Source: a candidate division KSB1 bacterium
Lineage (GTDB): Bacteria; Zhuqueibacterota; JdFR-76; DREG01
Direction of reading: 5' to 3'
NCBI GenBank assembly: GCA_022566355.1
Contig: JADFJB010000028.1
Location: 1 to 39,230 of the forward strand
DNA length: 39,230 nucleotides
Shown piece after piece: positions 8,164-34,978 of the stretch. The notes beneath the pieces are model-generated. The model had not been told where the DNA came from and searched no databases. It saw nothing but the letters and a program-made list of their open reading frames with translations. The translations under genes and the position numbers were made by a program. Within the stretch, counting starts at the first letter, position 1. Each line of letters starts with the position of its first letter.

Positions 8164-8970
8164 CTACAAAATTTTCCGGGATACGGTTAAGTAAGTCCAG
8201 CCGGTTAGTTTCTGAAAAGAGGGGTTATCAAATCTTTCTAGCATTTTGGACATCTTAATATTCATTCGATTAAGCATGGCCATTCTATAGGTCTTCATAA
8301 TTCCGTGCGTGTGTATTAAACCGGAGATTTTTTTCAAATCTTTTTTTGATAAAATGGTATCCACCTCGCTTATGTCAAAGTAGTGCATTTTGTATAGCCT
8401 GTGGATGACTTTATCCACTTTCAGTACTCCGTAAACCAACGACTTCATAAACATGTACATGGGACTATGGTGCCACAACTTTCGGTAAATATTAAATACA
8501 GAATGTTTACTGGGGACAGAGAGGATCAAATAACCATCAGGTTTTAAGATCCTGCTTATTTCAGTTATCGCGTCTGCGTATGAGTTGATATATTGAATGA
8601 CGCCTAAACACAATACCATATCAAACTGATCATCTTTGAATGGAAGAAAATTTGTATCTCCATTAATCAAGGCGATTCCACTGTAATTTTTTTTTCCTGT
8701 TTCAAGCATTTTATTTGAAAGATCAACCCCCACTTTTTGAGAGCCCTTTAAAGGAATTTCTCCGATCACGTTGCAACTTCCGCAACCTATTTCAACCACT
8801 CTTGAGAATTCATTCTCTTGGGCTAAATCAAGGACTGTTTCAAGAACCAATTCTTTCCTAAGTTGTAAATCAAACTGAAAAATGCTTTTAGGCTCATTGT
8901 TATAATTGTCAAACCACTCCTGGCTTTCATGATCAAATCTGTTTTTTACTGCTTGACTTTGATTCAACAT
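8164..8970 (-). CDS. SAM-dependent class I methyltransferase
   Basis: Rossmann-type methyltransferase. Motif I is VVEIGCGSCNVIG (about residues 60-70 from this start), followed by VGVDLSNKMLETG (motif II), DGDTNFLPF-like INGDTNFLPFKDDQFDMVLCLGV (motifs III/IV) and EISRILKPDGYLILSVPS (motif VI). It probably modifies a sugar or another part of the surface polymer. The frame can begin at GTG 8985 or ATG 8970. Neither has a strong ribosome binding site; I prefer the ATG. It is three bases from the upstream P-loop gene if the GTG is used. The target is unknown. Confidence 0.85.
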   Translation of the reverse strand: MLNQSQAVKNRFDHESQEWFDNYNNEPKSIFQFDLQLRKELVLETVLDLAQENEFSRVVEIGCGSCNVIGEIPLKGSQKVGVDLSNKMLETGKKNYSGIALINGDTNFLPFKDDQFDMVLCLGVIQYINSYADAITEISRILKPDGYLILSVPSKHSVFNIYRKLWHHSPMYMFMKSLVYGVLKVDKVIHRLYKMHYFDISEVDTILSKKDLKKISGLIHTHGIMKTYRMAMLNRMNIKMSKMLERFDNPSFQKLTGWTYLTVSRKIL

Positions 8971-8987
8971 AACTAAGAGTTCCACGA

Positions 8988-9773
8988 CTAAACAGTAAAA
9001 TCCAACGAGCGCTTCTTTTCAACTTCTCGAGAGAATCTCTTTGTCAAAATATCGTGTAAAACGACGGCACTTTCATCCAGCTTGCCATTGTTATTTACCA
9101 CAGCACAAGACCAACCTTGTTCCTTAATACCCTGTAGGACAATCTCTATAGTCTTGGCGCAATTCCTCATGTATGGTATAAGCTCTTCGTCGAGATAGCG
9201 TCTGTATTTTCCTCTGGAAATCACCCTGTTAACGCAGATGTCTATTGCCGTGTTTACACAAATTAACAGATCTGCTTGAGGCAGGAGTTTTATATACTTA
9301 AGAATTTCATGGGGTTGGGGTTCTTCCTGTGCCGATGTATATAAACTAGTGATGCGATGAACCAATCCCTCGGATAAGATAAGTGCTTCATCCGGCCTTA
9401 AGCGGTCTTTAAAAAATTGATAGAAGCTACAGTCCATCAAAAAATACCCAAGAATTGTACGCTTTTCTTTGAAGGAGAGTTTGCTGGTGAATAATAGACA
9501 GACTGCATGTCGAACCAAGGCTTGATTGAGAAGTGCAAAATATAACCGATGTAACATCAGCAGACGACGGGAAACCGCACTGAGAACTCTTTCTTGCCAT
9601 TTTTGTGGAGTGATGATTTCTATTAACCTCCCAAGCGGCACTCTTTTTAAACAGAGAATCCGTGCTCTGTAAGGAGACACAGCGTATAGATCGAGGTCCG
9701 ACAGAATCATGTTGGTAATTGACACTAACTCACTTTTACCTGCCCCGGGAGGACCGACAAACTCAATAATCAT
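8988..9773 (-). CDS. P-loop NTPase, kinase-like
   Basis: 261 residues. The N-terminus is a textbook Walker A loop (GPPGAGKS, residues 7-14). A lid-like arginine-rich segment (NRVISRGKYRRY, about 198-209) and a preceding LLICVNTAIDICVNR strand resemble nucleoside or thymidylate kinase-type proteins. No further catalytic signature identifies the substrate. It sits between a methyltransferase and a nucleotidyltransferase/kinase-like fusion that also carries a P-loop of this type, so the two may act on related substrates. Small kinase is a reasonable guess; function is not known. Confidence 0.65.
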   Translation of the reverse strand: MIIEFVGPPGAGKSELVSITNMILSDLDLYAVSPYRARILCLKRVPLGRLIEIITPQKWQERVLSAVSRRLLMLHRLYFALLNQALVRHAVCLLFTSKLSFKEKRTILGYFLMDCSFYQFFKDRLRPDEALILSEGLVHRITSLYTSAQEEPQPHEILKYIKLLPQADLLICVNTAIDICVNRVISRGKYRRYLDEELIPYMRNCAKTIEIVLQGIKEQGWSCAVVNNNGKLDESAVVLHDILTKRFSREVEKKRSLDFTV

Positions 9774-9816: not shown

Positions 9817-11301
9817 TCACATTATTTTCCACAATTCCTCTTTGGCATATAACAACGCCTGATCAAATGGCTGGTTCGCATCAATATCGATAATTTTCAG
9901 GCCATTCCTGCTCATATTTTCAATAGCCTGAATTTTGGGTTCGATTTCCTGGGGTGTATGATCTGGCTTTCTCTTTAAAGCAACGTTTGGTGCAACTTGC
10001 AGTAACAAAACACAATCCGGCGGGTAGATCTTGTTATAAAGCTTCAGCTCTAATTTAGATAGATGGGATGTCATCCAATTCATCTTCCCGTCTTGATATT
10101 TCCATTTGATTTGCGGCCCATCCATTGGTGCACGTGTTGAGTTCATCATCACTTGATGGATCCCGGACAAAGGATATCGGTCGCACAAGACGATAGATCC
10201 CCGTTCCGCTTCTTTCCTGCTGGCCAGATAACGAAAATATCGAGTCCACGCGACAGATACATAGTGAAGATCATAAGTAAAGTTGTAAATTGTTTTTAAT
10301 TTGTTTGATAACCATTTTTTGTTTCCAACGACGGCTACACTCACATTATTCAGTCTCGAAAAAAACCTTGCACAAGATTGGGTCATTCGGCTCCCGAATG
10401 ACAACCGTTTGCCCAAGCCCATGTAACAGAGTTGCACTTTTAATTTCCAGGATAACCATTTGCTCAAATTAGTAAGCATGGAGGACTTGCCGGCGCCATC
10501 CGCTCCGATTAAAGCCACAACCAGTCCCCTTGATGCCAGTTTCTTTTTCTCAGGCGATGAGTTTCCGATATTTACAGAACGCAAAGCGGACTGCCAGCGG
10601 TTGTATGTTCGGTAGGCTGCCAATTGTTTTCGTAGTGCTCTTCGAATTTGGTAAATCTTGTAGCCGGAATGAGGTGTTTTGGTAACAACCTCAAGGAATC
10701 TAATCACGATTTCTGGAGAAATAAATTTCACGTCCGATTTTAGAGTGCTTGAAATTCGCTCAATAGTAGTTTGCTTTGTAAGGTCATGAAACGTTTGTAC
10801 CGTTTTAGGAGGAATTCCGGGTGTTAGGATAGCTAGAATATCTTTTATAACATCCCGATTTCGATATCTCAAGAGCGTTATCACAACCCTTGCCAGCACA
10901 GCCAATTCAGGTGAGGCCACCTTGAATCCATTCTCACTTTTCGAGGAATCCAGGAAATTCTGCTCCAAAGGTAGTCGGTAAGTGTTAAAGGGATTGTCGC
11001 CCAAGATGATCTTGTAGTAGACATGTAAGTGAAAGCATTTTCCGGTCTTTTCATCGCAGCCAAGATAATCTTCTACGTCCGGTATTTTTTTGGCAGGAGG
11101 GGAGAGCATAAGTTTGCAGTCATGTTTCTCCAAAATTCCTTTAAACCGTTCATACTTTCTATGGTCAACAAGTAAGTCCAAATCGGAATGGCCTTGGGCA
11201 GCCTGTTGCAAATGGGTATTACCTTTCCAAATGCAGTAGTGGATTTCTTGCTCATCTAATTCTCTGAACAGGTTTTTTACCGATGTTAAGCAGCTTATCA
11301 T
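9817..11301 (-). CDS. Nucleotidyltransferase / thymidylate kinase-like fusion protein
   Basis: 494 residues in two parts. The N-terminal half (about 1-160) looks like an uncharacterised nucleotidyltransferase: IWKGNTHL followed by HSDLDLLVD (residues 38-46), the expected metal-binding aspartate pair. The C-terminal half (about 258-494) is a P-loop kinase domain with VVALIGADGAGKSS (Walker A at 266-273) and a DRYP segment at 374-377, both typical of thymidylate kinase-like proteins. The start ATG overlaps nothing upstream. The stop of the preceding wzx gene overlaps this ATG (ATGA, 11298-11301). A housekeeping thymidylate kinase is unlikely because of the fusion and the setting. It probably phosphorylates or nucleotidylates a polymer precursor. 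Confidence 0.72.
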   Translation of the reverse strand: MISCLTSVKNLFRELDEQEIHYCIWKGNTHLQQAAQGHSDLDLLVDHRKYERFKGILEKHDCKLMLSPPAKKIPDVEDYLGCDEKTGKCFHLHVYYKIILGDNPFNTYRLPLEQNFLDSSKSENGFKVASPELAVLARVVITLLRYRNRDVIKDILAILTPGIPPKTVQTFHDLTKQTTIERISSTLKSDVKFISPEIVIRFLEVVTKTPHSGYKIYQIRRALRKQLAAYRTYNRWQSALRSVNIGNSSPEKKKLASRGLVVALIGADGAGKSSMLTNLSKWLSWKLKVQLCYMGLGKRLSFGSRMTQSCARFFSRLNNVSVAVVGNKKWLSNKLKTIYNFTYDLHYVSVAWTRYFRYLASRKEAERGSIVLCDRYPLSGIHQVMMNSTRAPMDGPQIKWKYQDGKMNWMTSHLSKLELKLYNKIYPPDCVLLLQVAPNVALKRKPDHTPQEIEPKIQAIENMSRNGLKIIDIDANQPFDQALLYAKEELWKIM

Positions 11302-16644: not shown

Positions 16645-17889
16645 TTATTGGGTCTCTTCACAATCTACAAGTAGATTGTCTGTTGCGAAAGGTTCGGATT
16701 CTAATCCTTTACATTCTTTGAAGAGACCAGCTAAAGCAGCAAGCATAGTAGCCTGTCCCCAATGAAACATTGGGGTTTTGTTAGTTATTAAAGGATATTT
16801 ACGAAAGTAGAAAAATCCTTTGGAATCCTGCATGTGTTTTATGGTCCAAAGCGCAACTTTTTTCGCAAGTTCTAAAGCGGATTGATCGTACTCACATAGA
16901 TTCACTAGGGTCTGAATTCCTTGGGATGCACATTGAATATCGATGGGATAGGTTTTGTAGTCATAGTATCTTGGCGTTCCTTCTTTCTTGAAAAATGTTT
17001 CTTTATAATATTTGAAGCCTCTTATTAAATTTTCTTCGTTTGTTTTGTCTCCGGTTGCTTTTATGTAGCCATAAATTGATTCTAACACATAGCCGGTATG
17101 GAAACTGTCAACCCACGTGTATTTTTGAGGCTCGCCGTAATACCACCCGCCACTCGCCAGTTGATATTTTACAGTGTAATCGATGGCTTTTTTCGCAATA
17201 GAAAAAAGACTTTCCTTTTTAGTATAGCGATATAATCTACCTAATAACAATGCGCCTAACGCATTGGCATTGTGAATACTCTCCTCAAATGTCGGATTAT
17301 CTTTGTCTGAAGGGGTATACATTAGGCACAGCGTGTCGTTAGAATCATTGTAGCGGCCGATATCATTTACTATAAAATCACAAGAGCTTTTCGCAATTTC
17401 AAAATAGGCTGGCTCACCAAGCTGTTCGTATGCATCCAGAAAGACATTTGCAATAAGAGATGTCCAAACAATAGAAGGAACATTGCATGGTATTCTTCCC
17501 CCTCTTGATTCATAACTAAAATGATTGCCCCAGGCATAGCCTGAATAGCCTTTACTATAATTATTGCTTAGCCAATCCAAACAAAATTTCATTTTTTTAA
17601 GGTATTCTACATTTTCTGTGGCCTGATATAACTTTAGATAGCCCAAAGAGCAAAATCCCATACCTTTACTACTGGTTTCCATCTTAATTCCGAGAAGAGG
17701 CCGCATGTTGATAGGAAATCTTCTAACCGATTGTTGCAGTATGATTCTTAAATAATGGTTGTCAAATGTAAGTGTGCCCAACATTCTAGCATTCAAGCCA
17801 TCAAAGGGGTCATAAGCCTTCCAAGCATTTTTCATAATCCATTGCTCTAAGTTATAAATGCCATTAGAAATTATTTTTAATTCACTCAT
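16645..17889 (-). CDS. Alpha/alpha-toroid protein of polysaccharide loci
   Basis: 414 residues, soluble, with no signal peptide. The sequence is a run of paired amphipathic helices with recurring aromatic and glycine motifs (GFCSLGYLKLYQAT, GYAWGNHFSYES, PSIVWTSLIANVFLDAYE, NANALGALLLGRLY, GGWYYGEP, DSFHTGYVLESI). This is the pattern of (alpha/alpha)6 barrels, as in six-hairpin glycosidases, N-acylglucosamine 2-epimerase and uronyl C5-epimerases. Relatives in exopolysaccharide clusters are often mislabelled delta-aminolevulinic acid dehydratase. The start ATG 17889 follows an AAGGGA Shine-Dalgarno. With the AlgD homologue nearby, an epimerase or hydrolase acting on the uronic polymer is plausible, but this is inference. 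Confidence 0.7.
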   Translation of the reverse strand: MSELKIISNGIYNLEQWIMKNAWKAYDPFDGLNARMLGTLTFDNHYLRIILQQSVRRFPINMRPLLGIKMETSSKGMGFCSLGYLKLYQATENVEYLKKMKFCLDWLSNNYSKGYSGYAWGNHFSYESRGGRIPCNVPSIVWTSLIANVFLDAYEQLGEPAYFEIAKSSCDFIVNDIGRYNDSNDTLCLMYTPSDKDNPTFEESIHNANALGALLLGRLYRYTKKESLFSIAKKAIDYTVKYQLASGGWYYGEPQKYTWVDSFHTGYVLESIYGYIKATGDKTNEENLIRGFKYYKETFFKKEGTPRYYDYKTYPIDIQCASQGIQTLVNLCEYDQSALELAKKVALWTIKHMQDSKGFFYFRKYPLITNKTPMFHWGQATMLAALAGLFKECKGLESEPFATDNLLVDCEETQ

Positions 17890-17901
17890 GAATATTTCCC
17901 T

Positions 17902-19191
17902 TCAATTTAAGACCGGGGAGCCTTGTTTTTTATTATTTGAATGATCAAGGAGCCACTCATAAGCCGAGATTAGATTCTCTGAAACATGCTGCCATGCTAG
18001 CTCATTCACAATTCTTCGTCGCCCAAAAGCTCCCAATTCTGTTCTCTCTTCAGGATTATCCATCAATCTAACAATGGCTTCTGCAAATTCTAACTCACTG
18101 TTTGGAGTTACATAGATTGCTGCCTTTTGTGCCGTAACGCGTGTTTCCGGTAAATCGAAACTGACAATTGGTTTGCCCAAAGCCATATATTCCATGATCT
18201 TTATCCAGGTCGATACATCATTAAGCGGGCTGGAGGGGTCAGGGTCAACGCATATGTCGGCCGTGGATAAATAACGAAACATATCGCGATCGGGAATAAA
18301 ACCTGTAAACCAGACATAATCATCAATCTCCAGTTCATGTGCTAATGCTTTTGCATCCGGAAGCGAATCGCCAGATCCAATGATAACACAGTAAAAATCA
18401 CTCCTGCCAATCTCGTAAACCAAACATCTTATTGCCCTAAGCAGATAGTCAACTCCGTCTTGCGGGTTAATCTCTCCTACATAACCAAGGATTTTCTTGT
18501 TCAACTTTTTTAGCTCTCCATCCGGCGGATGCAATTTTATCCTATCCAAATCAGGACCGTTCCTCACTATAAATACATCCTCCGGCTTTTTGTCACCTCT
18601 TTGCATCGCAATATTTTTGTAAGATTCATTCGTCGCGATCACCATGTTTGCGGACCGTAAGCACAGTTTTTCAACTCTAAGAAGACCACGATGGATAAAA
18701 CCGTCATCTACTCCAAATCTTGACAAATACAATTCCGGAGACAAATCGTGATGATCAAAGACGAACTTCTTTCTAAAAAGCTTAAAAAAAGCCCCTACCA
18801 GAAAAAGGGTATCGGGAGGATTATGAATGTGAACAACATCGAACGATTCTTTTATAGCAATATAAAGACTCAATATGAGGCAAGCAGTTGTAAAGTAAAA
18901 ATATTCGATTAGGTAACCCACAACTGATTTTGCAGTTTGATATAGTTTTAGGATACTGGAATCTCGTTTTTTACTGCTTTTCTGGAATAATTCTAATTTG
19001 GGGATTCTGTAGACGCCAACCTCATTTATTTTCTCCTTTGCTGGCTGCCCTTTCTTACGCAGCGAAATTATGGTAATCTTATAACCCGCTTTTGTTAGAG
19101 TAACCGCTTCATTTCTTACTCTTACATCTGCCGGGTAGTAATCTTCCACAAGCATTAAGATTTTACCAACATATTCCTTCATAGCAGCCAT
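17902..19191 (-). CDS. Glycosyltransferase family 4 (WbuB-like)
   Basis: 429 residues, GT-B fold. The N-terminal domain has KILMLVEDYYPADVRVRNEA and DVVHIHNPPDTLFLVGAFF. The C-terminal domain has ILGYVGEINPQDGVDYLLRAI, FYCVIIGSGDSLPDAKAL, VWFTGFIPDRDMFRYLSTADICVDPDP and STWIKIMEYMALGKPIVSFD with the donor-binding glutamate. This resembles WbuB/WcaI-type N-acetylaminosugar or uronosyl transferases. It overlaps the end of the dehydrogenase gene by 29 bases, or by 20 if the second ATG (19182) is used, so the two are translationally linked. Exact specificity is unknown. Confidence 0.9.
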   Translation of the reverse strand: MAAMKEYVGKILMLVEDYYPADVRVRNEAVTLTKAGYKITIISLRKKGQPAKEKINEVGVYRIPKLELFQKSSKKRDSSILKLYQTAKSVVGYLIEYFYFTTACLILSLYIAIKESFDVVHIHNPPDTLFLVGAFFKLFRKKFVFDHHDLSPELYLSRFGVDDGFIHRGLLRVEKLCLRSANMVIATNESYKNIAMQRGDKKPEDVFIVRNGPDLDRIKLHPPDGELKKLNKKILGYVGEINPQDGVDYLLRAIRCLVYEIGRSDFYCVIIGSGDSLPDAKALAHELEIDDYVWFTGFIPDRDMFRYLSTADICVDPDPSSPLNDVSTWIKIMEYMALGKPIVSFDLPETRVTAQKAAIYVTPNSELEFAEAIVRLMDNPEERTELGAFGRRRIVNELAWQHVSENLISAYEWLLDHSNNKKQGSPVLN

Positions 19192-20473
19192 TTAATTCTT
19201 CTAAAGTTGTAAAAATTCTAATTAGATCTATTATCTTTGTGTTGCTGTTTATTCCGGCAACAGTCTCTTCATATTCTTTGCTCTTATTACCCACAACGAT
19301 AACTTTTGAATTATTAATAACCTCTTGCACCGATTTTTTCATTAATGAGGAGATATGAGGAATTGCTTGCTCTATATATTTCTTGTTGGATCCAACAATT
19401 CTCGCTAAGGATACTTCTTTGTCATGAATGCTAATTTCATATCCCTTGCCAAGCAGTCTCTCAATTAGTTCAACCATAGGGCTTTCCCGCAGATCGTCAG
19501 TCCCTGGTTTAAAACTAAGTCCCAACACCCCTACTTTTTTCATTCCGGTTTTCTTAACCAATTTATAGGCTAATTCTATCTGATTATCGTTGCTCCTCAA
19601 AATCGATCTCATTACCGGAAGGTCTAGATCAAGTTCTTTTGCTTTATAAAGTAGTGCTCTTAAATCTTTGGGCAAACAAGAGCCTCCAAAAGCGTATCCC
19701 GGCTTTAGGTAATACGACGAAAGATTAAGTTTTGTATCCTGACAAAAGATGTCCATTACCTCGTGGCTGTCTATGTCAAGATTCTTGCATATGTTGCCAA
19801 TTTCATTGGCAAAGGAGACCTTTAATGCGTGAAAAGTGTTACTAGTATACTTGATCATTTCCGCAACTTTGATGCTCGTCCTTATGATAGGAGCATTCAA
19901 ATTTTCGAATATTCCTGCAATAACGTTTCCACTCTTCTTATCCAGTTCGCCGATGAGCGTAAACGGTGGATTATGATAATCATAAATGGATGTGCCCTCC
20001 CGCATAAATTCAGGGTTCATGCATACCCCAAAGTCTACGCCCGCCTTTTTCCTGGATTCCTTTTCAAGGATCGGAATCACAGTTTCATCTATTGTCCCCG
20101 GGAGAACCGTACTGCGGATATTTACAACATGATAGGTGTCTATTTCGCGCAGGTAATCACCGATTTGCTTCGCTACTTTTTTAATATTATCCAACTGCAA
20201 ACTGCCATTTTCGTTACTCGGCGTGCCTACGCAAACTATAGAAATATCAGCAAGACCAATACTATTCACAGTTGCACTGAGCCTGTTTGAAGCGACTGCC
20301 TTTTTAATTGTTTCTTGCAGCTCTGGCTCTACAATCGGACTCCTGCCATTATTGATCATGTTTACTTTTAATTCGTCAACATCGATGCCCGCAACGTAAT
20401 TGCCATTGCGTGCCAGGCAAGCGGCGGATACGCAACCTACATACCCCAGACCAAAGACGTTGATTTTCATCAT
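19163..20473 (-). CDS. algD: GDP-mannose 6-dehydrogenase (AlgD-like)
   Basis: Oxidises GDP-mannose to GDP-mannuronate with two NAD. The 436-residue protein follows Pseudomonas AlgD closely: NAD-binding FGLGYVGCVSAACLA (residues 7-20), GRSPIVEPELQ, FICVGTPS-like IVCVGTPSNENG, STVLPGTIDETVIP, NPEFMREGTSIYDY, the middle-domain VAEMIKYTSNTFHALKVSF, and the catalytic cysteine in GYAFGGSCLPKDLRAL (Cys266). The C-terminal half has LGLSFKPGTDDLRESPMVEL. Even the terminal EGICW matches AlgD, which separates it from UDP-glucose dehydrogenases. It supplies a uronic acid donor and is the best clue to polymer chemistry. ATG 20473 is followed by a second ATG. Confidence 0.88.
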   Translation of the reverse strand: MMKINVFGLGYVGCVSAACLARNGNYVAGIDVDELKVNMINNGRSPIVEPELQETIKKAVASNRLSATVNSIGLADISIVCVGTPSNENGSLQLDNIKKVAKQIGDYLREIDTYHVVNIRSTVLPGTIDETVIPILEKESRKKAGVDFGVCMNPEFMREGTSIYDYHNPPFTLIGELDKKSGNVIAGIFENLNAPIIRTSIKVAEMIKYTSNTFHALKVSFANEIGNICKNLDIDSHEVMDIFCQDTKLNLSSYYLKPGYAFGGSCLPKDLRALLYKAKELDLDLPVMRSILRSNDNQIELAYKLVKKTGMKKVGVLGLSFKPGTDDLRESPMVELIERLLGKGYEISIHDKEVSLARIVGSNKKYIEQAIPHISSLMKKSVQEVINNSKVIVVGNKSKEYEETVAGINSNTKIIDLIRIFTTLEELNGCYEGICW

Positions 20474-20482
20474 TTATTCTCC

Positions 20483-21424
20483 TTAATGGCTTGTTGTTCT
20501 TAGGAAGTCTTTTTCTTTAATTCTCGAATAGAATTGAGCAACTTCCTTGGGCAATGCATTCCAATGCTGACCTTCATATTTGGTTTTAACGTATCTGAGC
20601 AAATCCGTATAGTATTGCACTGGAAATTCTTCCAGTCCCAGCTTTTCTCCGGCAAAGTTCATATAATCAGGATGTGTGTTCAAAAGTGCCATGCCGCCAT
20701 TCTCAGCAATCCAATCTAATTTTTTCTTCCAAATATCGATGTTCTGTTCTTTCATAATTATTAACAATGCGTGATCCTGAGCTAAGGTGTAGGGGAGCTC
20801 GACATAACCGTTTTTTGTTCCATTTCTTGCCACCCAAAATGGAAAAATCGTATTCACACCATCAGACTGGGGTTCAAAGGGGTCCGTATCAAAAGTAGAT
20901 GAGTCATATTTAATTTTCAGATTATGAATCCAATCGAGATTGTGATGCATGGATGGAGAACGAAAGCCTATCGCTTGCCACTCTTTTAGATATCGATTAA
21001 TTCGAGATGCTCGCTCTCGAAAAATTTCTACAGAATCATAAAGTTTACCATCATGTTTCAATCCATGTACACCTACTTCAAATCCATTGCTGGTTATGTG
21101 ATCACGTAGTTCAGACGAAACATGATATCGTTCAGGGACAAAATTAAAAGAGGATCTAAATCCCATTTGTGCCTCTAGCCTCATCAAAGGCATGCATTTG
21201 TCATGACCTTGCGCTGATTCCACGTCATGCGTCAAAACCAGGGCGAATTTCTTTTGGTTTGGCCAGCCGGCCCAGCCTTGGGGGGGCTTGTTAGCACTTT
21301 CATCTATTGGCCAAATATCTTTGTATAATGCTCGTTTTCGAAGAATTCTCTTTCTCCGCAATAGGATTTGTAACCGTCTTGGAATGATTGGCTTAATGGC
21401 ATAAAATATTTGTGTTGTGATCAA
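20483..21424 (-). CDS. Polysaccharide deacetylase family protein (NodB-like)
   Basis: Metal-dependent carbohydrate esterase (CE4-like) that would remove acetyl groups from an amino sugar or acetylated polymer. Motif 1 is THDVES (residues 65-70) in place of the usual TFDD. Motif 2 is VGVHGLKHDGKLYDS, with His120 and His124 as metal ligands. FRSPSMHHNL and a distal LNTHPDY complete the set. No signal peptide is evident; the N-terminus is basic (IPRRLQILLRRKRILRKR), so it may act at the cytoplasmic membrane face. The start is TTG 21424. No ATG precedes the conserved N-terminal FYAIKPIIPRRLQ stretch. The gene is nine bases from algD, in the same operon. Confidence 0.85.
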   Translation of the reverse strand: MITTQIFYAIKPIIPRRLQILLRRKRILRKRALYKDIWPIDESANKPPQGWAGWPNQKKFALVLTHDVESAQGHDKCMPLMRLEAQMGFRSSFNFVPERYHVSSELRDHITSNGFEVGVHGLKHDGKLYDSVEIFRERASRINRYLKEWQAIGFRSPSMHHNLDWIHNLKIKYDSSTFDTDPFEPQSDGVNTIFPFWVARNGTKNGYVELPYTLAQDHALLIIMKEQNIDIWKKKLDWIAENGGMALLNTHPDYMNFAGEKLGLEEFPVQYYTDLLRYVKTKYEGQHWNALPKEVAQFYSRIKEKDFLRTTSH

Positions 21425-21728: not shown

Positions 21729-22418
21729 CTATATAATTGCAGCCTGCTTGATCGGTTTCTTAGTAAGCAAAAATATGTGTTTCCAAGTATTCTTATTTTC
21801 TTCCTTAATTGTAGAAAATCCATACTTTTCAAATAGTTGGTTTATGAGCGCTCGGTCCCTTCTAATCCTTCTGATCCCCCTTTGCCAATATTTTGGTAAT
21901 GCAAAATCAGGAAGATTATTTTTGACTAAATACATCAATGTTTTAGGTCTCGTGTCAAATTGTAAATACACTAATCCGTCATCATAAAGACTTTCATGAA
22001 TTTTGCAAATATAATCTTCGATAACGTCAAAATCCTCAATACACGGGAGTGTTTTTACGGAAAATATGAAATCGGCTTTGTGTTCATACCAAGGGGCGGT
22101 GGGTAGGAAACATTTCACTCCGTTTCTAACTCCATTTTTTTCAGCATTTTTCTCTAATAACTCCAACATTTTTTTGGAGATATCTACTCCTATACATTCA
22201 TTAAAATAAGAACCCATTGGAATTAGACACCTTCCGGCTCCGCATCCGATCTCAATAACAGTATTATGGTTATGCAAGAAATCTTTTACTTCAAAAAATA
22301 TCTCTTTTGCCTGCCTTATTCCGGTCTCCCAAAATTCATCGATGGTGCCATTAAAGGGCGCCAACAAGTACCAATACGGATTAGCTTTGGCAAACGATTC
22401 CCACTTATTTTCCGTCAC
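21729..22418 (-). CDS. SAM-dependent class I methyltransferase
   Basis: 229 residues. Motif I TVIEIGCGAGRCLIPMG (about residues 54-70) and the SAM-binding acidic residue in CIGVDISKKMLELLEKNAEK are clear. They are followed by DFIFSVKTLPCIEDFDVI and the motif VI-like LYDDGLVYLQFDTRP. The start is GTG 22418, overlapping the stop of the decarboxylase-like gene (GTGA) and preceded by a GAGGA Shine-Dalgarno. The tight coupling to that enzyme and the ATP-grasp protein suggests it modifies the same group, for example by N- or O-methylation. The substrate is unknown. Confidence 0.85.
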   Translation of the reverse strand: MTENKWESFAKANPYWYLLAPFNGTIDEFWETGIRQAKEIFFEVKDFLHNHNTVIEIGCGAGRCLIPMGSYFNECIGVDISKKMLELLEKNAEKNGVRNGVKCFLPTAPWYEHKADFIFSVKTLPCIEDFDVIEDYICKIHESLYDDGLVYLQFDTRPKTLMYLVKNNLPDFALPKYWQRGIRRIRRDRALINQLFEKYGFSTIKEENKNTWKHIFLLTKKPIKQAAII

Positions 22419-23260
22419 GATTTGGTCCTCGTTAATTTATTATCTTCCCCCAGGGTCCTATCAAAAGTTGCGATAACAGATAAGCCTGCCACGACTTTTG
22501 TATTGGATAAGACTTCAATTCGAATCGATAGCAAATTTGGTATAATTAAATCAACCTGAGACCCAAATCGAATCACACCAATCCTTTTCCCTCTCTGAAT
22601 CTGCTCCCCTTCCTTAATATATGGGACGATCTTTCGAACCAATCGAGAGGCAATCTGAATGATCCCTACTTTGAAGTCTCCGTTATCAATTACCGTAAAT
22701 ACTCTCTCATTTTGAAAAGCAGCTTCTTTTTTCTTTAATGAAATGAACAAACCTTTAATGCGTTTCAGAAGGACAATCTTGCCCCCTATGGGAGCACGAT
22801 TCACATGAACGTCCAAATAGTTCATCGCAATACCGATAAGATACCCACCGTTTGGAAGGACGTCCGCTTGAACAAAATCTCTCAAGGAGAATTTTTTTCC
22901 GTTTTTATCTGAAAAAGGGATTTCTCCCTCTTCTATTTTTTTGATATAAAGAATCTCTCCATCGGCAGGAGATAAAATCGCGTTGTCAATTTTAGGAGGT
23001 ATTCTATCCGGATCTCTATAAAATCTCCAGAGAAGAAGTAGAATTGCAGTTGTGGTTATCAAGATAATTTCCATGACTGGTAATTGGAAAAAACTGAGAC
23101 TATAGAATTTCGATATCCCATTAACAATGGCACCGCTAAATATTCCAATGACCAAGGCGGCAGGTAAGATGAACTTCTTATCAAGCTCCCATTTTTTCCC
23201 CAAGGTCACAAGAATGAGAAAGCTAAATACTGAACTGGAAGCGAAAATCATCCAAGTCAT
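22415..23260 (-). CDS. Phosphatidylserine decarboxylase-like protein
   Basis: Pyruvoyl-type decarboxylase of the short (class A) PSD family. Three hydrophobic segments occupy the first ~75 residues. The catalytic part follows: RFYRDPDR, ILSPADGEILYIKK, LDVHVNRAPIGGK (catalytic His region) and IGVIRFGSQVDLIIP. The Gly-Ser pair in the last segment is the self-cleavage site that forms the pyruvoyl group. I choose ATG 23260, two bases after the upstream stop and preceded by AGAGGGA, over the in-frame ATG at 23284. Placement in a sugar-polymer operon between an ATP-grasp ligase and a methyltransferase suggests a substrate other than bulk phosphatidylserine, or making of phosphoethanolamine precursor. 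That is inference. Confidence 0.82.
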   Translation of the reverse strand: MTWMIFASSSVFSFLILVTLGKKWELDKKFILPAALVIGIFSGAIVNGISKFYSLSFFQLPVMEIILITTTAILLLLWRFYRDPDRIPPKIDNAILSPADGEILYIKKIEEGEIPFSDKNGKKFSLRDFVQADVLPNGGYLIGIAMNYLDVHVNRAPIGGKIVLLKRIKGLFISLKKKEAAFQNERVFTVIDNGDFKVGIIQIASRLVRKIVPYIKEGEQIQRGKRIGVIRFGSQVDLIIPNLLSIRIEVLSNTKVVAGLSVIATFDRTLGEDNKLTRTKS

Positions 23261-23262
23261 TT

Positions 23263-24432
23263 CTAAAATTCCCTCTTCATCCATAGGTATGGAAGCATCG
23301 CAAGTTCGGCAAAAAAGGGAAGAGGGTCATCAAACGAAAATACTGCAAATTCCTTTTTCCCTTTCATTGATCTCAGGTAATCACCTATTTTCATTCTTCC
23401 TTTGAGGATCTCGAGAAAAACCGTCGGAATATCGGTGGTTAACCGTACCCACTTCATGTGGTTGGAAGTGGGGTGAATATCTAATTCTTCTCCAATCATA
23501 TTCTGATAAAGCAAGTAGGGGAGATCGACTCCAGCAGCGATGGCAAGGGTATGCCAGCCCCAAAACCTTGGATTTACTTCGATCAACTTGTATGTTCCAT
23601 TTTGGGGGTCCTGCATAAATTCGACTTCTGCAATCCCATAGTAATCGATGAGACTCAAAAATTTTTCTGCAATTGTTTGTATTTCCGGTATGTCGACTAG
23701 CTCGGCAAATGTAGAGGCATGTCCGAAATCCATGGGGTGCTGACGTGCTCTTCTGGCCATAACACTCGCGACAACTTCACCTTCTTTGAAAAATGGGCAA
23801 AATGAATACAGACCATTGGGCCCCCCCGGGATGAACTCTTGCACCAAAACCTCTGAAGCATCAATGATAGAACTAACCTGTTGGTATGTTTTTATAAGTT
23901 CTTCTCTATCATTTATGCGAAAGGCTTTGGTTTTGACCTTGCTGTAAAAGTGATCCCTAATGGAGGGCTTAATCACCACAGGGAAGTGGAGGTCCAATTC
24001 GAGCAGTTCATCGTGATTCTGGGGATAGTAGGTTTCAGGTATAGGGATATCATGTTTCTTAGCTATTTGATAAGTCTTTTTCTTTTCATAAACATTTTGA
24101 ATAATTTCCCATCCGGGTGTGGGAATTCTATAATACTCTTCCAAAATGTCCTTGAATTTGGACAGAATGAACACTGCTTCGTCGCTGTTTGGAAAAATCA
24201 CCCACCCATTAATTCCTTCCTTTATTGCCAAATTAATGAGAAAACTAACATAAGAATCTGTGTCTGACGTTTTGGGAGATCTAAAGAATCTCTTTCCAAA
24301 CCTTGAAAATCTGCCGATACAATAGTCGCTGTCCAACAGAACAGTTGGGATGCCTTTTTTCGCTAATGATCTAAGAATCCCAAGTCCCTGAAAATCTCCC
24401 CCAGTGATCACAGCGCCAATTTTTTCTCGCAT
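23263..24432 (-). CDS. ATP-grasp domain protein
   Basis: 389 residues. The N-terminal pre-ATP-grasp region begins GAVITGGDFQGLGILRSLAKKGIPTVLLDSD. The ATP-grasp core contains FPVVIKPS (about 155-162), EVLVQEFIPGG (about 195-205), YGIAEVEFMQDPQNGTYKLIEVNPRFWGWHTLA (metal-binding Glu and Asn-Pro-Arg), and a C-terminal cap. Such enzymes join a carboxylate to an amine or other nucleophile through an acyl phosphate. Relatives are seen in exopolysaccharide clusters. It runs directly into the decarboxylase-like gene, so the two are likely one pathway. The true substrates are unknown; an amino-acid or uronate amide is a reasonable guess. Confidence 0.82.
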   Translation of the reverse strand: MREKIGAVITGGDFQGLGILRSLAKKGIPTVLLDSDYCIGRFSRFGKRFFRSPKTSDTDSYVSFLINLAIKEGINGWVIFPNSDEAVFILSKFKDILEEYYRIPTPGWEIIQNVYEKKKTYQIAKKHDIPIPETYYPQNHDELLELDLHFPVVIKPSIRDHFYSKVKTKAFRINDREELIKTYQQVSSIIDASEVLVQEFIPGGPNGLYSFCPFFKEGEVVASVMARRARQHPMDFGHASTFAELVDIPEIQTIAEKFLSLIDYYGIAEVEFMQDPQNGTYKLIEVNPRFWGWHTLAIAAGVDLPYLLYQNMIGEELDIHPTSNHMKWVRLTTDIPTVFLEILKGRMKIGDYLRSMKGKKEFAVFSFDDPLPFFAELAMLPYLWMKREF

Positions 24433-24606: not shown

Positions 24607-25671
24607 TTATCCTGAGCTCTTATTTTGAAACCTCTTTTTCTCAAAGATCATATCTGGATGGCGATTTCGGATTTCAATTGAAACACCATTTTTTTGAATT
24701 GACTCGCAAATTGCTTCAATAATAGTAACAACACGAAGCCCTGAATATCCATCGCTAATAGGAGTTTTTCTTTCCTGAATGCATTCAATAAAGTGTTCAC
24801 ATTCGGCTCTTAAAGGTTCTTTATCCTCAATTCGAGGGCTAAAAATATCACCATAACGATATGCGAATTGAAACTCGCCATAAGTGTCATATTGTGGAGG
24901 ACTGTCAATCCCTTTGTCGAATATCTTGATTTTTTCATTGGGATGTGTATCGTCATAAACCAGCATTTTTTTTGTCCCCACTAGCGTCATCTTTCTAACT
25001 TTGTAAGGATCTAGCCAACTATGATGAAGAAAAGCGATTTCGCCATTGTCAAAATTAAGAGTCGCTGTTGCTACATCATCAATTCCCTTAAAAAAATGGG
25101 CTTTCCCTTGTCCGTTAACTCTAAGTGGCGTTTTCCCCAAAAGGTACAAAATAATCGAAATGTCGTGAGGGGCTAAATCCCAGACAACGTTAATATCCTG
25201 TTGAAAAAGACCCAAGTTCAGTCTTAAACAACTTATATATAATATTTCTCCGAGATCTTCATTCTGTAATATGCTTTTTATCTTATTTACAGCTGCGGTA
25301 TATTCAAATGTGTGCCCTACCATCAATGTTCTATCCATCTCATTAGCAATCCTAATTAAATCTAAACAATGATCACTTGATAGCGCCAGAGGTTTTTCTA
25401 CTAAGACATGTTTACTAGCTAATAAAAATTCTTTAGCTAACTTATAGTGAGTATGCACCGGTGTTGCAATGATGATTGAATCGATTGCTTCAGAATATAG
25501 AATATCTTTATAATCGACAGTTGTTTTAATCCCGGGAAAGAGTTGTTGCATCCTAGTGAGATTTTTTATTTCCAAATCACAACAGATATCAACCTTGCAA
25601 CCTGGAATTGAATAAATATTGCGGATTAGATTTGGCCCCCAATATCCGCAACCAATAACTGCGATATTCAT
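24607..25671 (-). CDS. Gfo/Idh/MocA family sugar oxidoreductase
   Basis: 354-residue NAD(P)-dependent dehydrogenase. The Rossmann N-terminus is IAVIGCGYWGPNLIRN (G-x-G-x-x-G, residues 7-12). IIIATPVHTHYKLAKEFLLASKHVLVEKPLAL holds the Glu-Lys-Pro signature, and MVGHTFEYTAAV follows. The C-terminal half is the usual beta-sheet substrate domain, with WDLAPHDISIILYLLG. It may oxidise a nucleotide sugar such as UDP-GlcNAc (WlbA-like) to a 3-keto form or another sugar intermediate. No matching aminotransferase is visible in the window, so the pathway is incomplete or uses enzymes elsewhere. The gene lies 41 bases from the sugar-transferase gene. Confidence 0.85.
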   Translation of the reverse strand: MNIAVIGCGYWGPNLIRNIYSIPGCKVDICCDLEIKNLTRMQQLFPGIKTTVDYKDILYSEAIDSIIIATPVHTHYKLAKEFLLASKHVLVEKPLALSSDHCLDLIRIANEMDRTLMVGHTFEYTAAVNKIKSILQNEDLGEILYISCLRLNLGLFQQDINVVWDLAPHDISIILYLLGKTPLRVNGQGKAHFFKGIDDVATATLNFDNGEIAFLHHSWLDPYKVRKMTLVGTKKMLVYDDTHPNEKIKIFDKGIDSPPQYDTYGEFQFAYRYGDIFSPRIEDKEPLRAECEHFIECIQERKTPISDGYSGLRVVTIIEAICESIQKNGVSIEIRNRHPDMIFEKKRFQNKSSG

Positions 25672-26585: not shown

Positions 26586-27590
26586 CTAAGAAAATGAATT
26601 CTTCACAATCTGCGATAAATTATCTCCTAAGTGATGCTTCTTTCTATTCAGTACGCCACCTAAAATATTTACATTGGCGTCTTCTAAGAGTTGTTTTGCA
26701 TCTACTAAATCATGCCAACCTGTCTGTTCGGCTTGTATTATTAACACAACTCCATCGCAGAGTTTGCTAATTGTAATCCCTTCAGCATGGGTAAGTAGAG
26801 AGGGAATATCGATAAATACCAATTCGAATTGGTGTTTTATTTTTCCCAAAATAGATTTGAACATCTCGGTATTAATTTGACTTGTTGCTTTCCAGTCTTT
26901 TTGCCCGACGGTTAGTAATTTCAAACTAGAGGTTGAAATATTCCTTACTATAGAATTCAATGAGAGCTTGCCATCAGGGGACCAACATGGTTCGTCCATT
27001 AACAAATCGTAAAGTCCAAGTTCGGAAGAGACATTAAATATCTTGTGGAGAGATGGATTTGTGAATTGAGAATCGATTACTATTGTACCTTGTTTTTTTT
27101 GATCATTTTGTTCCTTAATTGTGCTCCTAAATTTATTTTTCAAACCCAAAGTCCTGTTATAATTACTTTGGCCTTCCGAGATCATTAAAGAAATTATGCT
27201 TAGCAGAGTAGATGTCCCTTCTTTTGGAACTGCACTGGTAAAACCGATGACTTGAAGTTTTTTATCTTTGGCTGAGGAAAGTATGTTTTCAACAATTCGC
27301 TTAATTTCATTTAGCATCCCAGATGGTATATTGTTCAAATGATTACTAGAGGTTCTTTTATTATTGCCGTTTTTTCTGAAGTTATCTATTTCAGAATTGA
27401 TTGCGGTTGGAAGTTTTTGAGAATTTCTTTTTGAATTACTTTCAGCATTTTTTAAAGATGAACCATTTCCATTACTTGAAACTTTTTGAAAAATATGGCA
27501 ATTTGAATTAGATTGCTCCCAGGGCAATAGTCGAGGATCTAATTTTCCTTCTTCTAGTGCCTTTTTTAAGGCTTTATGGACAAAGCTCAC
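26586..27590 (-). CDS. CpsD/CapB-like ATPase with degenerate P-loop
   Basis: Cytoplasmic partner of the chain-length protein in BY-kinase systems. N-terminus VSFVHKALKKALEEGKL is the usual start of this family. A ~60-residue low-complexity linker follows, then a MinD/ParA-type domain. In place of the Walker A GxGK(S/T) motif it has TSAVPKEGTST (residues 119-129): the essential lysine is replaced by threonine. Walker A' reads IVIDSQF, not IDAD. Walker B is VFIDIPS. The C-terminus lacks the tyrosine cluster (it ends IVKNSFS). Kinase activity is therefore doubtful. The start is GTG 27590 (or TTG 27593), overlapping the stop of a 24-codon frame. Confidence 0.8.
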   Translation of the reverse strand: MSFVHKALKKALEEGKLDPRLLPWEQSNSNCHIFQKVSSNGNGSSLKNAESNSKRNSQKLPTAINSEIDNFRKNGNNKRTSSNHLNNIPSGMLNEIKRIVENILSSAKDKKLQVIGFTSAVPKEGTSTLLSIISLMISEGQSNYNRTLGLKNKFRSTIKEQNDQKKQGTIVIDSQFTNPSLHKIFNVSSELGLYDLLMDEPCWSPDGKLSLNSIVRNISTSSLKLLTVGQKDWKATSQINTEMFKSILGKIKHQFELVFIDIPSLLTHAEGITISKLCDGVVLIIQAEQTGWHDLVDAKQLLEDANVNILGGVLNRKKHHLGDNLSQIVKNSFS

Positions 27591-27661
27591 CAAACAAACC
27601 CTACATCTTCTGATTTTGAAAAAACATCTTCTCTATCTTCGTCATGTATTCTATTAATCAT
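27587..27661 (-). CDS. Possible 24-residue coupled small ORF
   Basis: ATG at 27661 opens a 24-residue frame rich in Asp, Glu and Ser (it begins MINRIHDEDRED and ends GFVW). It fills the gap between the AAA ATPase and CpsD-like genes. Its TGA overlaps the GTG start of the latter (GTGA), a hallmark of translational coupling. No clear Shine-Dalgarno precedes it. It may be a short leader peptide or chance. Codon usage cannot decide at this length. Confidence 0.3.
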   Translation of the reverse strand: MINRIHDEDREDVFSKSEDVGFVW

Positions 27662-31719: not shown

Positions 31720-33096
31720 TCATTGAAGTTGTGGCTCTTTGAATTTTGGATTAAGGTTGAGTTTTTTTACTAATCTGCTAAAATCACCACGATCTTTTTT
31801 AGCTTTTTTAGCTGCTTGCGTTAAGTTGCACTGATGAGAAAGAAGCAAGCGTGTTACATAACCCCTCTCAAATTTCTCAACGGCGATTCTTTTGGCTTCG
31901 ACAAATGACAATTCTTTTTTTTCTATGGAAAAGGGAAAATCTTGAATTTCGATATTCTGAGGTGCGATGATCGGACTTGGAGAAAGAAGAATAGCCTGTT
32001 GTATGATATTTTCAAGTTCACGAATATTCCCGGGCCAACTATACATCATAAGTTTCTGAAGTGCAGCCAAAGAAAGAGTTTTATTTCTCCGACCAATGTT
32101 TTTTTGATACTTTTTTAAAAAACATTTAGCTAATAGCGGTATGTCACCTGCCCTTTCACGTAATGCAGGTAATTTCAGTGTAATTGTAAAACGATAGAAT
32201 AGATCTTCACGAAACCTGTTCTGTTGAGTATGTTGTCTTAAATCTACATTGGTTGCACCCATAACCCGAATATTAGCCTTGATGTCCTTGGTTTGACCTA
32301 GTGGTCGATAGGTTTTGTCTTGGAGTAATCGAAGTAGTTTGCTTTGAGCTTCAAGAGGTAGACTATCGATTTCATCCAGAAATAAAGTGCCTCCTTCGGC
32401 TTCTGCAACAATCCCATTCTGATTATTGTGTGCACTGGTAAATGCTCCCTTGCGGTGGCCAAATAGCTCATTCTCAATAAGGCTTGTGGGAATTGCACCA
32501 CAGTTAACCGAAATGAATGGTTGATTTGATCTATTACTTAGAAAATGAATGGCTCTTGCACACAATTCTTTGCCAACACCAGTTTCACCTGTCAAGAGAA
32601 TGGTTGCATCGCAGTCTGATACTTGTGGAATATTTGATATACTCTCAATAAAAATTGGATCCTGACCAATGAGCTGTGAATGACCTGCTTTCTGTAAGAT
32701 GTTTTTTCTAGCTAATGATTTTTTTTCACTGTTGACTTTATTTATCAACCACTTTATGCGGTAAACCACCTCAATCTCTCTCAAGGGGGTTGTGATAAAA
32801 TCATCTGCAAATGGTATTGAACGGTTTTCAGCTAAGGTCTGATCTTCGCTGCCACATAGAACAACAATTCCAGGTACAGCTGCAAGATTATTTTCGTGGG
32901 AGAGTTCATTGTAACAATTTCGATCAATGACGTAAAAAAACAAATCAAATTGTTTTTCATTGAATGTATCCATATGTGATTGAGAACTCACAACGAATTG
33001 AATTTCACAATTAATATTCGAATCTAAAATGGAGCACAAATGTTTGGCAGTGTGGTCACTGCAGTCGTTCAAAACTAGAAAATTTATTTTCGGCAT
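31720..33096 (-). CDS. Sigma-54-dependent activator, pseudo-receiver + AAA+ + Fis-type HTH
   Basis: 458 residues. N-terminal ~120 residues have a receiver-like fold pattern (KINFLVLND; FDLFFYVIDRN; DDFITTPLREIEVVYRI) but lack the phospho-acceptor aspartate and the conserved lysine, so phosphorylation is unlikely. The AAA+ domain is complete: Walker A GETGVGKE (170-177), Walker B GGTLFLDEID (235-244), arginine-finger region LFYRFTITLKLPALRER, and WPGNIRELENII. The sigma-54 contact loop is GAFTSA where the consensus is GAFTGA. The C-terminus carries a Fis-type HTH (NLTQAAKKAKKDRGDFSRLVKKL). It likely regulates its own block and possibly the polysaccharide operon. Paralogue of the gene at 33605. 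Confidence 0.9.
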   Translation of the reverse strand: MPKINFLVLNDCSDHTAKHLCSILDSNINCEIQFVVSSQSHMDTFNEKQFDLFFYVIDRNCYNELSHENNLAAVPGIVVLCGSEDQTLAENRSIPFADDFITTPLREIEVVYRIKWLINKVNSEKKSLARKNILQKAGHSQLIGQDPIFIESISNIPQVSDCDATILLTGETGVGKELCARAIHFLSNRSNQPFISVNCGAIPTSLIENELFGHRKGAFTSAHNNQNGIVAEAEGGTLFLDEIDSLPLEAQSKLLRLLQDKTYRPLGQTKDIKANIRVMGATNVDLRQHTQQNRFREDLFYRFTITLKLPALRERAGDIPLLAKCFLKKYQKNIGRRNKTLSLAALQKLMMYSWPGNIRELENIIQQAILLSPSPIIAPQNIEIQDFPFSIEKKELSFVEAKRIAVEKFERGYVTRLLLSHQCNLTQAAKKAKKDRGDFSRLVKKLNLNPKFKEPQLQ

Positions 33097-33604: not shown

Positions 33605-34978
33605 TCAAGATTGATGTTTCAGGAAGGCCTTTCGGTTAAGGTTAAATTTTTTCATTAATTTACTAAAATCCCCTCGGTCTTTCTGCGCTTTATTAGCGGC
33701 ACGGGATACGTTTCCGTTATAAGAAATAAGCAAACGTGTTAAATAATCCTTCTCAAATTGTTCTAACGCCATCCTCTTAGCTTTACTAAATGATAGTTCG
33801 TCATTAGTTATATTTGTGGATGGATCTTGGATGTGAATATTGTGAGGTGTAATGACAGAGCCTGGATTGAGTAGAATCGCTTGTTGAATGATGTTCTCGA
33901 GTTCCCGAATATTTCCAGGCCAATGATAAATCATAAGCTTTTGTAAGGCTGACGGGGAAAGTGATTTATGTTCCCGGTCGAATTCCTTAAGATATTTTTT
34001 TAAAAAAGAATTAGCTAATAAGGGGATGTCACTTGCTCTTTCTCGCAATGCTGGTAATTTTAAGGTAATTGTAAAACGGTAAAATAGATCCTCACGAAAC
34101 AAGTTTTTTTTAATCTGCTGTTTTAGATCTGCATTTGTTGCTCCGATCACCCTGATATTGGCTTTGATATCTTTCGATTGGCCAAGCGGTCGATAGATCT
34201 TATCCTGAAGTAATCGAAGGATTTTACTCTGGGAATCCAGCGAAAGGCTATCGATTTCATCAAGAAATAATGTGCCCCCAGAAGCTTCAGCAATTAGACC
34301 ATATTGATTGCTTTGGGCGTCGGTAAATGCTCCTTTTTTGTGGCCAAATAATTCATTTTCTATTAAATTCGTGGGAATTGCACCACAGTTAACCGGAATA
34401 AATGGTTTGTCAGACCTTTTACTGAGATAATGAATCGCTCGTGCACACACTTCTTTTCCCACACCTGTTTCACCTGCCAGCAAAATGGTTACATCACAAT
34501 CTGCAACTTTGGGGATTTTTGATATTCTGTCCAGAAAAACTGGATCCTGGCCAATTAACCGTGAGATTCCTACTTTTTGTAGAATATTTTTCTTCGCTAC
34601 TTCTCTCTCTTCACTGTTCACTGAACCAATAAAACGCATAACGCGGTAAATAATCTCAGTTTTTCTAAGAGGTGTAAAGATAAAATCATCAATTCCTGAT
34701 ATTAAAGACCAATCTCTTTTTGCTTTCGAATCTTTGGTGCAAATTACACCTATACTTGGAATAGATTTAAATGTGTTAACTAATGTAAAATTTTCATTAT
34801 CCTTCTCATCTTTAATCCAAAAGTAAATATCAGGTTTGCTACTATTGTTAAATTCCTGTATTTGGTTTGGCTTCACTAATTGATTTTCACAGTCGAAATT
34901 GGATTGCAAGATGGAAATCAACATATCTGAAGTATTATGACTGCATGAATCTAGGATAAAAAACTTATTTTTTATCAT
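33605..34978 (-). CDS. Sigma-54-dependent activator, paralogue 2
   Basis: 457 residues, closely similar to the activator at 31720 over the AAA+ and C-terminal parts but divergent in the first 120 residues. The N-terminal pseudo-receiver (KNKFFILDSCS; PDIYFWIKDEKD; DDFIFTPLRKTEIIYRV) lacks the usual Asp and Lys. Walker A GETGVGKE (169-176), GGTLFLDEIDSL and WPGNIRELENII are intact. The sigma-54 loop is GAFTDA. The C-terminal HTH is NVSRAANKAQKDRGDFSKLMKKF. Start ATG 34978; its own sigma-54 promoter lies 169 bases upstream. Tandem paralogues with divergent sensory parts probably bind similar DNA sites but answer different signals. Confidence 0.9.
   Translation of the reverse strand: MIKNKFFILDSCSHNTSDMLISILQSNFDCENQLVKPNQIQEFNNSSKPDIYFWIKDEKDNENFTLVNTFKSIPSIGVICTKDSKAKRDWSLISGIDDFIFTPLRKTEIIYRVMRFIGSVNSEEREVAKKNILQKVGISRLIGQDPVFLDRISKIPKVADCDVTILLAGETGVGKEVCARAIHYLSKRSDKPFIPVNCGAIPTNLIENELFGHKKGAFTDAQSNQYGLIAEASGGTLFLDEIDSLSLDSQSKILRLLQDKIYRPLGQSKDIKANIRVIGATNADLKQQIKKNLFREDLFYRFTITLKLPALRERASDIPLLANSFLKKYLKEFDREHKSLSPSALQKLMIYHWPGNIRELENIIQQAILLNPGSVITPHNIHIQDPSTNITNDELSFSKAKRMALEQFEKDYLTRLLISYNGNVSRAANKAQKDRGDFSKLMKKFNLNRKAFLKHQS

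Follow-up and report, generated by a model that had tools for sequence, protein, structure and literature searches.

The stretch analysed here (the window: 39,230 nucleotides, positions 1 to 39,230 of contig JADFJB010000028.1 from a candidate division KSB1 bacterium) carries an exopolysaccharide locus on its minus strand, as determined by Pfam and NCBIfam profile matches, the Pfam scan covering 30 of its proteins. In this locus a gene for an ATP-grasp ligase directly precedes a gene for a proenzyme of the phosphatidylserine decarboxylase (PSD) family, and this pair is a conserved, previously undescribed unit. Besides the ATP-grasp ligase, the PSD-like protein and a methyltransferase, the locus encodes the Wza and Wzz proteins, a tyrosine-kinase-like protein, an ATPase, a sugar transferase, a Gfo/Idh oxidoreductase, a NodB-like deacetylase relative and a sugar 6-dehydrogenase, together with glycosyltransferases, a Wzx-like flippase and a protein resembling Wzy. 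The features around the pair are as follows:

23263-24432, minus strand: ATP-grasp ligase of 389 amino acids, first gene of the conserved pair (PF15632, PF02786)
22415-23260, minus strand: PSD-family decarboxylase proenzyme, 281 amino acids from its likely start (PF02666, E 4e-41)
22415-23284, minus strand: longest open reading frame (ORF) of the PSD-like gene in the ORF list, 289 amino acids; PSD residues are numbered on it
22415-22418, minus strand: GTGA stop/start overlap of the PSD and methyltransferase genes, read from the sequence
21729-22418, minus strand: class I methyltransferase of 229 amino acids with a GTG start (PF13847/PF13649/PF08241)
20483-21424, minus strand: NodB/CE4-like polysaccharide deacetylase relative, homologues of which recur beside the pair
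19163-20473, minus strand: nucleotide-sugar 6-dehydrogenase (TIGR03026, 400.9 bits, above the cut-off)
24607-25671, minus strand: Gfo/Idh/MocA oxidoreductase, UDP-GlcNAc 3-dehydrogenase-like by its profile matches

A first-pass annotation had described the ATP-grasp, PSD-like and methyltransferase genes as a tight unit of three that could decorate a uronate polymer or its lipid carrier with an amine. The three ORFs are indeed present at its coordinates on the minus strand, and the 4-base GTGA overlap at 22415-22418 is exact. The gap of two bases that it placed behind the ATP-grasp stop codon (TAG, 23265-23263) exists if the PSD starts at the ATG at 23260, and disappears with the longest ORF. 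Counted along the longest ORF, which begins at 23284 and would overlap the ATP-grasp gene by 22 bases, this ATG is codon nine. In the alignment several PSD relatives begin at or beside the inner ATG, and 23260 is therefore the likelier start. The predicted source of uronate in the locus is the nucleotide-sugar 6-dehydrogenase.

The pair is maintained across the phylum of the window. In seven further genomes a long PSD is found that is 32-46% identical to the window copy, and in all seven it is immediately preceded by the gene for an ATP-grasp protein with 42-47% identity to that of the window. In profile searches, high-scoring ATP-grasp and long PSD proteins occurred in the identical 8 of the 82 genomes of the phylum and were adjacent in 8/8. 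These genomes are well separated by score, since their ATP-grasp proteins reach at least 545 bits against 320 for the next best, and their PSDs at least 313 bits against 157, with one exception at 170 bits, where the match is split by an insertion. By simple counting that ignores relatedness, the chance of such co-occurrence is about 3e-11. The pairing in the phylum is thus far beyond chance.

A scan of the wider collection with the ATP-grasp profile produced 80 loci (labelled L039, L174, etc.); outside the window's own phylum, all of them were found through the ATP-grasp gene. When contigs were scanned with a single PSD sequence as query no match was obtained, whereas the ATP-grasp alignment worked as a query. 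After removal of duplicates and with the seven same-phylum genomes included, 31 loci are PSD-positive, and in 29 of them the two genes are directly adjacent on the same strand, from -97 to +134 bases apart. According to the record titles, these loci belong to Calditrichota, Chloroflexota, Ignavibacteriota, Planctomycetota, Actinomycetota, Thermodesulfobacteriota, Bacteroidota, Spirochaetota, Pseudomonadota and Acidobacteriota, in addition to the window's phylum. Most records are metagenome bins and some of the phylum labels may be wrong, but the breadth of the distribution depends on no single one of them. The scattered spread of the pair across phyla suggests horizontal transfer.

Polysaccharide genes accompany the pair in 21 of the 31 loci, and within the window's phylum the order of the Wzc and sugar-transferase genes around it is near-constant. 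The gene-neighborhood survey thus bears out the tie between the ATP-grasp ligase and the PSD, which are linked across many phyla and mostly within polysaccharide loci. This does not extend to the third gene of the proposed trio. No close relatives of the window methyltransferase (21729-22418) were found in other pair loci; generic methyltransferases occur in 4/31 of them and are nearer to another window gene (8164-8985). Nor was a homologue of the window sugar dehydrogenase found within reach in other pair loci.

Of the 31 loci, 25 contain a NodB-like deacetylase, which belongs to the type encoded at 20483-21424 or to a longer one. Homologues of the window protein directly follow the PSD in, for example, L040, L042, L061, L067 and L070. 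The window deacetylase has no match of its own in Pfam or NCBIfam; its metal-binding and catalytic motifs (T65-H66-D67-V68, H120, H124, R155 and H251) are invariant. Other recurrent partners among the 31 loci are a B12-binding radical S-adenosylmethionine (SAM) protein in 16 and a formyltransferase-like protein in 9. A Gfo/Idh/MocA oxidoreductase upstream of the pair is also seen in loci of Calditrichaceae, Geobacteraceae and Syntrophales. The conserved unit is therefore the ATP-grasp ligase with the PSD, usually accompanied by the deacetylase, and the trio with the methyltransferase is one local arrangement.

In Dehalococcoidia (L041, L045, L047 and L094), compact clusters combine, in varying selections, the deacetylase, a GNAT acetyltransferase, the ATP-grasp ligase, the PSD, a WbuX-like amidotransferase, the formyltransferase and the B12-radical SAM protein.

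The PSD of the window matches PF02666 with 141.4 bits (cut-off 22, E 4e-41) and remains below the cut-off of TIGR00164 (166 of 230 bits). Three hydrophobic N-terminal helices precede its catalytic domain. The best Foldseek match of its AlphaFold2 (AF2) model (pLDDT 87.7) is the PSD of Escherichia coli, followed by the tryptophan decarboxylase PsiD and fungal arginine decarboxylases; the PSD family can therefore take other amino acids. The residues of self-cleavage and decarboxylation, D108, H160 and G241-S242, are invariant in all 31 locus-type copies, with D108, H160 and S242 being the equivalents of E. coli D90, H144 and S254 (alignment and PMC7952604). Around the active site, K127, S182-L183, R194, S213-R214, V216 and Q243 are also fixed in 31/31 and set these copies apart from the housekeeping PSDs. 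The residue after the cleavage serine distinguishes the two kinds of PSD without exception, being Q243 in 31/31 locus-type and R in 18/18 housekeeping proteins.

In E. coli PSD, Tyr137, Ser166 and Val167 make contacts to the lipid phosphate. The position of Tyr137 is occupied by A, G, S, D or E in 31/31 locus-type PSDs. A loss of phosphate recognition was considered and is weakened as an explanation, since the equivalents of Ser166 and Val167 remain. The PSD of L039 (8120-9040) carries about 37 extra residues between the NER and QIASR motifs, unseen in the other aligned copies.

The host genome (4.6 Mb, 98.5% complete) contains two PF02666 genes. The second encodes a protein of 215 amino acids on contig 19 and lies directly upstream of pssA (TIGR00473, 134 bits). 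The separate housekeeping psd, whose presence the first-pass annotation had proposed to check, thus exists, and the window copy is not the sole psd. A tree built from 49 proteins has one branch with 100% support that parts the 31 PSDs of the locus type from 18 housekeeping PSDs of the window's phylum, and the second psd of the host clusters among the housekeeping ones. The PSD of the window is not the housekeeping enzyme. It resembles housekeeping PSDs (E. coli, TIGR00164-type) in its PF02666 domain, the D-H-S residues, the GS cleavage site and the N-terminal helices. It differs from them in its separate clade, its greater length, the motif FGSQ in place of FGSR or LGST, its ATP-grasp partner, its score below the TIGR00164 cut-off and the many hosts in which phosphatidylserine synthase was not detected.

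The supply of phosphatidylserine was surveyed in 20 pair genomes outside the window's phylum. Nine of them carry a second PSD, and all nine also have a pssA homologue of at least 99 bits, mostly beside that psd. The other 11 have the locus-type PSD alone, with no TIGR00473 match above 29 bits and no E. coli-type PssA (0/11). Most of these 11 are draft assemblies, in which a missing contig could remove psd and pssA together as they are usual neighbors, so that the two absences are not independent. However, the pattern follows phylum, including all five Chloroflexota, both Actinomycetota and both Pirellulaceae. The 11 also include a chromosome in a single contig of 2.3 Mb (Dehalococcoidales, CP070842.1), in which the only CDP-alcohol transferase detected resembles a phosphatidylinositol-phosphate synthase. 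The search for the eukaryote-type synthase (PF03034) says nothing, as no control genome matched either. Because these 11 genomes have neither another PSD nor a detectable phosphatidylserine synthase, phosphatidylserine is unlikely as the substrate, and the locus-type PSD is probably independent of it.

The ATP-grasp ligase matches PF15632 (32.7 bits, cut-off 29.1, E 7e-8) and PF02786 (29.2 bits, cut-off 19.8, E 8e-7). Residues K117, K155, Q198, E271, N287 and R289 are invariant across 30 relatives. The nearest structures to its AF2 model (pLDDT 91.9) in Foldseek are L-amino-acid ligases, PylC and the CarB-like 2pn1, among generic ATP-grasp enzymes. A distant relative (33% identity) on a Priestia plasmid adjoins a PIG-L deacetylase and a glycosyltransferase. 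On this Priestia megaterium plasmid (L174, 6040-10237) the PIG-L deacetylase, the glycosyltransferase, the ATP-grasp relative and a phosphotransferase stand in a row, with spore coat/exosporium genes near. The arrangement agrees only loosely with a logic in which deacetylation is followed by ligation.

The reading favored here, held with slightly less than even confidence, is that the ligase couples a unit of the amino-acid type to a glycan, possibly lipid-linked, and that the PSD decarboxylates this unit in the course of exopolysaccharide tailoring. The NodB-like deacetylase would prepare or trim the site, probably by baring an amine on the glycan. The ATP-grasp ligase would then activate a carboxylate with ATP and form an amide or ester that links the amino-acid-type unit to the acceptor, an exopolysaccharide or a lipid-linked glycan heading for export. 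The membrane-bound PSD relative would cleave itself at Gly241-Ser242 to become a pyruvoyl enzyme and strip the alpha-carboxyl from the attached unit, leaving an amine-bearing side group that may be ethanolamine-, beta-alanine- or aminobutyrate-like. In the window, the methyltransferase whose gene overlaps that of the PSD may perhaps methylate this product further. Pyruvoyl decarboxylases need free amino and carboxyl groups on their substrate. Since the alpha-amino and alpha-carboxyl groups have to be free, the amino acid would be attached by its side chain, or not attached at all. In this scheme we infer the shared pathway intermediate, the glycan acceptor, the order of the steps and the choice of amino acid. 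The decoration role proposed by the first-pass annotation stands in so far as it fits better than phosphatidylethanolamine synthesis, given the 11/20 genomes in which no phosphatidylserine synthase was found; its assignment to the trio does not.

Several observations weigh against this tailoring scheme. The fold of the ATP-grasp model indicates a carboxylate ligase only and gives no substrate. The ATP-grasp tree contains a sister branch, mainly of Acidobacteriota, whose members lack the PSD and instead lie beside a flavin adenine dinucleotide (FAD) oxidoreductase (Pyr_redox / Lys-Orn oxygenase type; L068-L119, e.g., the ATP-grasp gene at L068:7700-8935), and a few close relatives (L057, L063 and L075) have neither partner. 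The ligase is therefore not always dependent on the decarboxylase. All of the ATP-grasp, PSD, FAD enzyme and deacetylase genes are found together in one locus, L110. In some loci, such as L045 and L094 of Dehalococcoidia, no polysaccharide genes are within reach of the pair, and the acceptor could therefore be a lipid or a small molecule. In addition, the equivalents of Ser166 and Val167 in locus-type PSDs are S182 and L183; these residues would still allow for a phosphoserine-type substrate or a head group that carries a phosphate.

The Dehalococcoidia clusters, compact and with few polysaccharide genes in reach, agree with an explanation in which a membrane lipid or a small metabolite is the target of the pair and the polysaccharide genes are just frequent neighbors. 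The presence of such genes in 21/31 loci and the near-constant order of the Wzc and sugar-transferase genes within the phylum of the window argue against it, and it is considered rather improbable. A similarly low probability is given to the PSD paralogue supplying dedicated phosphatidylethanolamine, as a phosphoethanolamine donor or lipid anchor, with its linkage to the ATP-grasp gene reflecting shared expression. The PF02666 protein has its catalytic residues and membrane helices intact, pssA is present in the host genome so that phosphatidylserine is likely available there, and in archaea PssD works for an anchoring pathway that involves an archaeosortase (PMC7157517). On the contrary, neither TIGR00473 nor the E. 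coli-type phosphatidylserine synthase was found in 11/20 carriers, the phosphate-binding tyrosine is replaced in all 31 copies, and among the window proteins scanned around the pair there is no pssA-like gene. In the host genome, neither an EptA-type phosphoethanolamine transferase domain nor an exosortase (PF09721) was found.

The reverse order of steps is rated slightly higher, although it also appears unlikely. Here the PSD would act first, on a free or phosphorylated amino acid, and the ATP-grasp ligase would amidate a uronate with the resulting amine, as in the Campylobacter capsule. The sugar 6-dehydrogenase of the window, the use of free amino acids by relatives with the PSD fold (PsiD and arginine decarboxylase) and the chemical precedent of Campylobacter jejuni (PMC12409886, PMC11800379) are in accordance with this order. 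However, the three hydrophobic helices point to a substrate linked to a lipid, soluble serine analogues are not accepted by E. coli PSD (PMC7952604), and no homologue of the dehydrogenase was found within reach in the other pair loci.

In the HS:2 capsule of C. jejuni, Cj1436 decarboxylates serine phosphate, and the resulting ethanolamine phosphate is attached to glucuronate as an amide by Cj1438C, an ATP-grasp domain (PMC12409886, PMC11800379). Like the window, that system (Cj1436, Cj1438C and Cj1435) combines an ATP-grasp amide ligase with a decarboxylase among polysaccharide genes and has a sugar dehydrogenase for uronate; it installs an ethanolamine-type group. On the other hand, its ATP-grasp enzyme is TupA-like, whereas that of the window has PF15632 and PF02786 matches and no TupA-like Pfam match. 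Its decarboxylase acts on serine phosphate, whereas that of the window is a membrane pyruvoyl enzyme of the PSD family. The Campylobacter type has a serine-phosphate decarboxylase and a phosphatase in its locus; among the Pfam matches of the 30 window proteins, no pyridoxal-phosphate decarboxylase or phosphatase was seen. The capsule route is thus a functional precedent and not a homologue, and by analogy the pair could work similarly.

Other specialized PSD relatives are known. PsiD and the fungal arginine decarboxylase use the PSD fold on substrates other than phosphatidylserine, but their fold match to the window PSD is weaker than that of E. coli PSD. To our knowledge, neither has an ATP-grasp partner. 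The archaeosortase-linked PssD (NF038088; PMC7157517) is a specialized PSD relative in a surface-anchoring pathway. The window PSD reaches 106.6 of the 240 bits of NF038088, below the cut-off, and it has neither an exosortase in its genome nor a pssA partner in its locus. The Wzz, Wza, ATPase and tyrosine-kinase-like genes are related to those of XrtA/PEP-CTERM exopolysaccharide loci, and in L046 the pair adjoins ligase and hydrolase genes related to those that accompany XrtA. However, all XrtA models remain under their cut-offs in the window. An exosortase link of the pair was rejected, as PF09721 has no match in the host genome. A literature search combining PSD with ATP-grasp, exopolysaccharide or exosortase yielded nothing describing the pair.

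Locus-type PSDs belong to PF02666, a family routinely read as enzymes making phosphatidylethanolamine. For roughly half of the tested hosts this reading looks wrong, since no phosphatidylserine synthase was found in them. A broader proposal, possible but less probable than the tailoring role itself, is that deacetylation, ligation and decarboxylation form a widespread, horizontally spread route. A PSD would have been recruited from phospholipids to an amino-acid conjugate built by the ligase on a lipid-linked glycan, giving a new amine decoration of exopolysaccharides, also in bacteria seemingly without phosphatidylserine. An ATP-grasp gene beside a long FGSQ PSD may serve as a marker for an uncharacterized tailoring pathway in many uncultured phyla. 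The pair makes testable both a role of the PSD fold without phosphatidylserine and the occurrence of amine groups on these polysaccharides or glycolipids.

Further features of the window were recorded. Kinases of the tyrosine-autokinase type usually carry the Lys of GKS/GKT in the P-loop; the tyrosine-autokinase-like protein at 26586-27593 (minus strand) reads SAVPKEGTST, with Thr at the usual Lys position, and is possibly an inactive kinase. In the polysaccharide operon, the sole match of a 494-amino-acid protein (9817-11301, minus strand) is a weak, C-terminal one to thymidylate kinase, and two proteins of 261 amino acids (7344-8129 and 8988-9773, minus strand) are without Pfam or NCBIfam match. 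A PelZ-like pectate lyase relative (4763-6151, plus strand, opposite to the operon) and a weakly GH88/GH76-like protein within the operon (16645-17889, minus strand) are candidates for polymer degradation. A defense-system library gave only a weak match, to a methyltransferase domain. Upstream of the export genes, two nearby sigma-54 activator genes (31720-33096 and 33605-34978, minus strand) are possible regulators of the exopolysaccharide locus.

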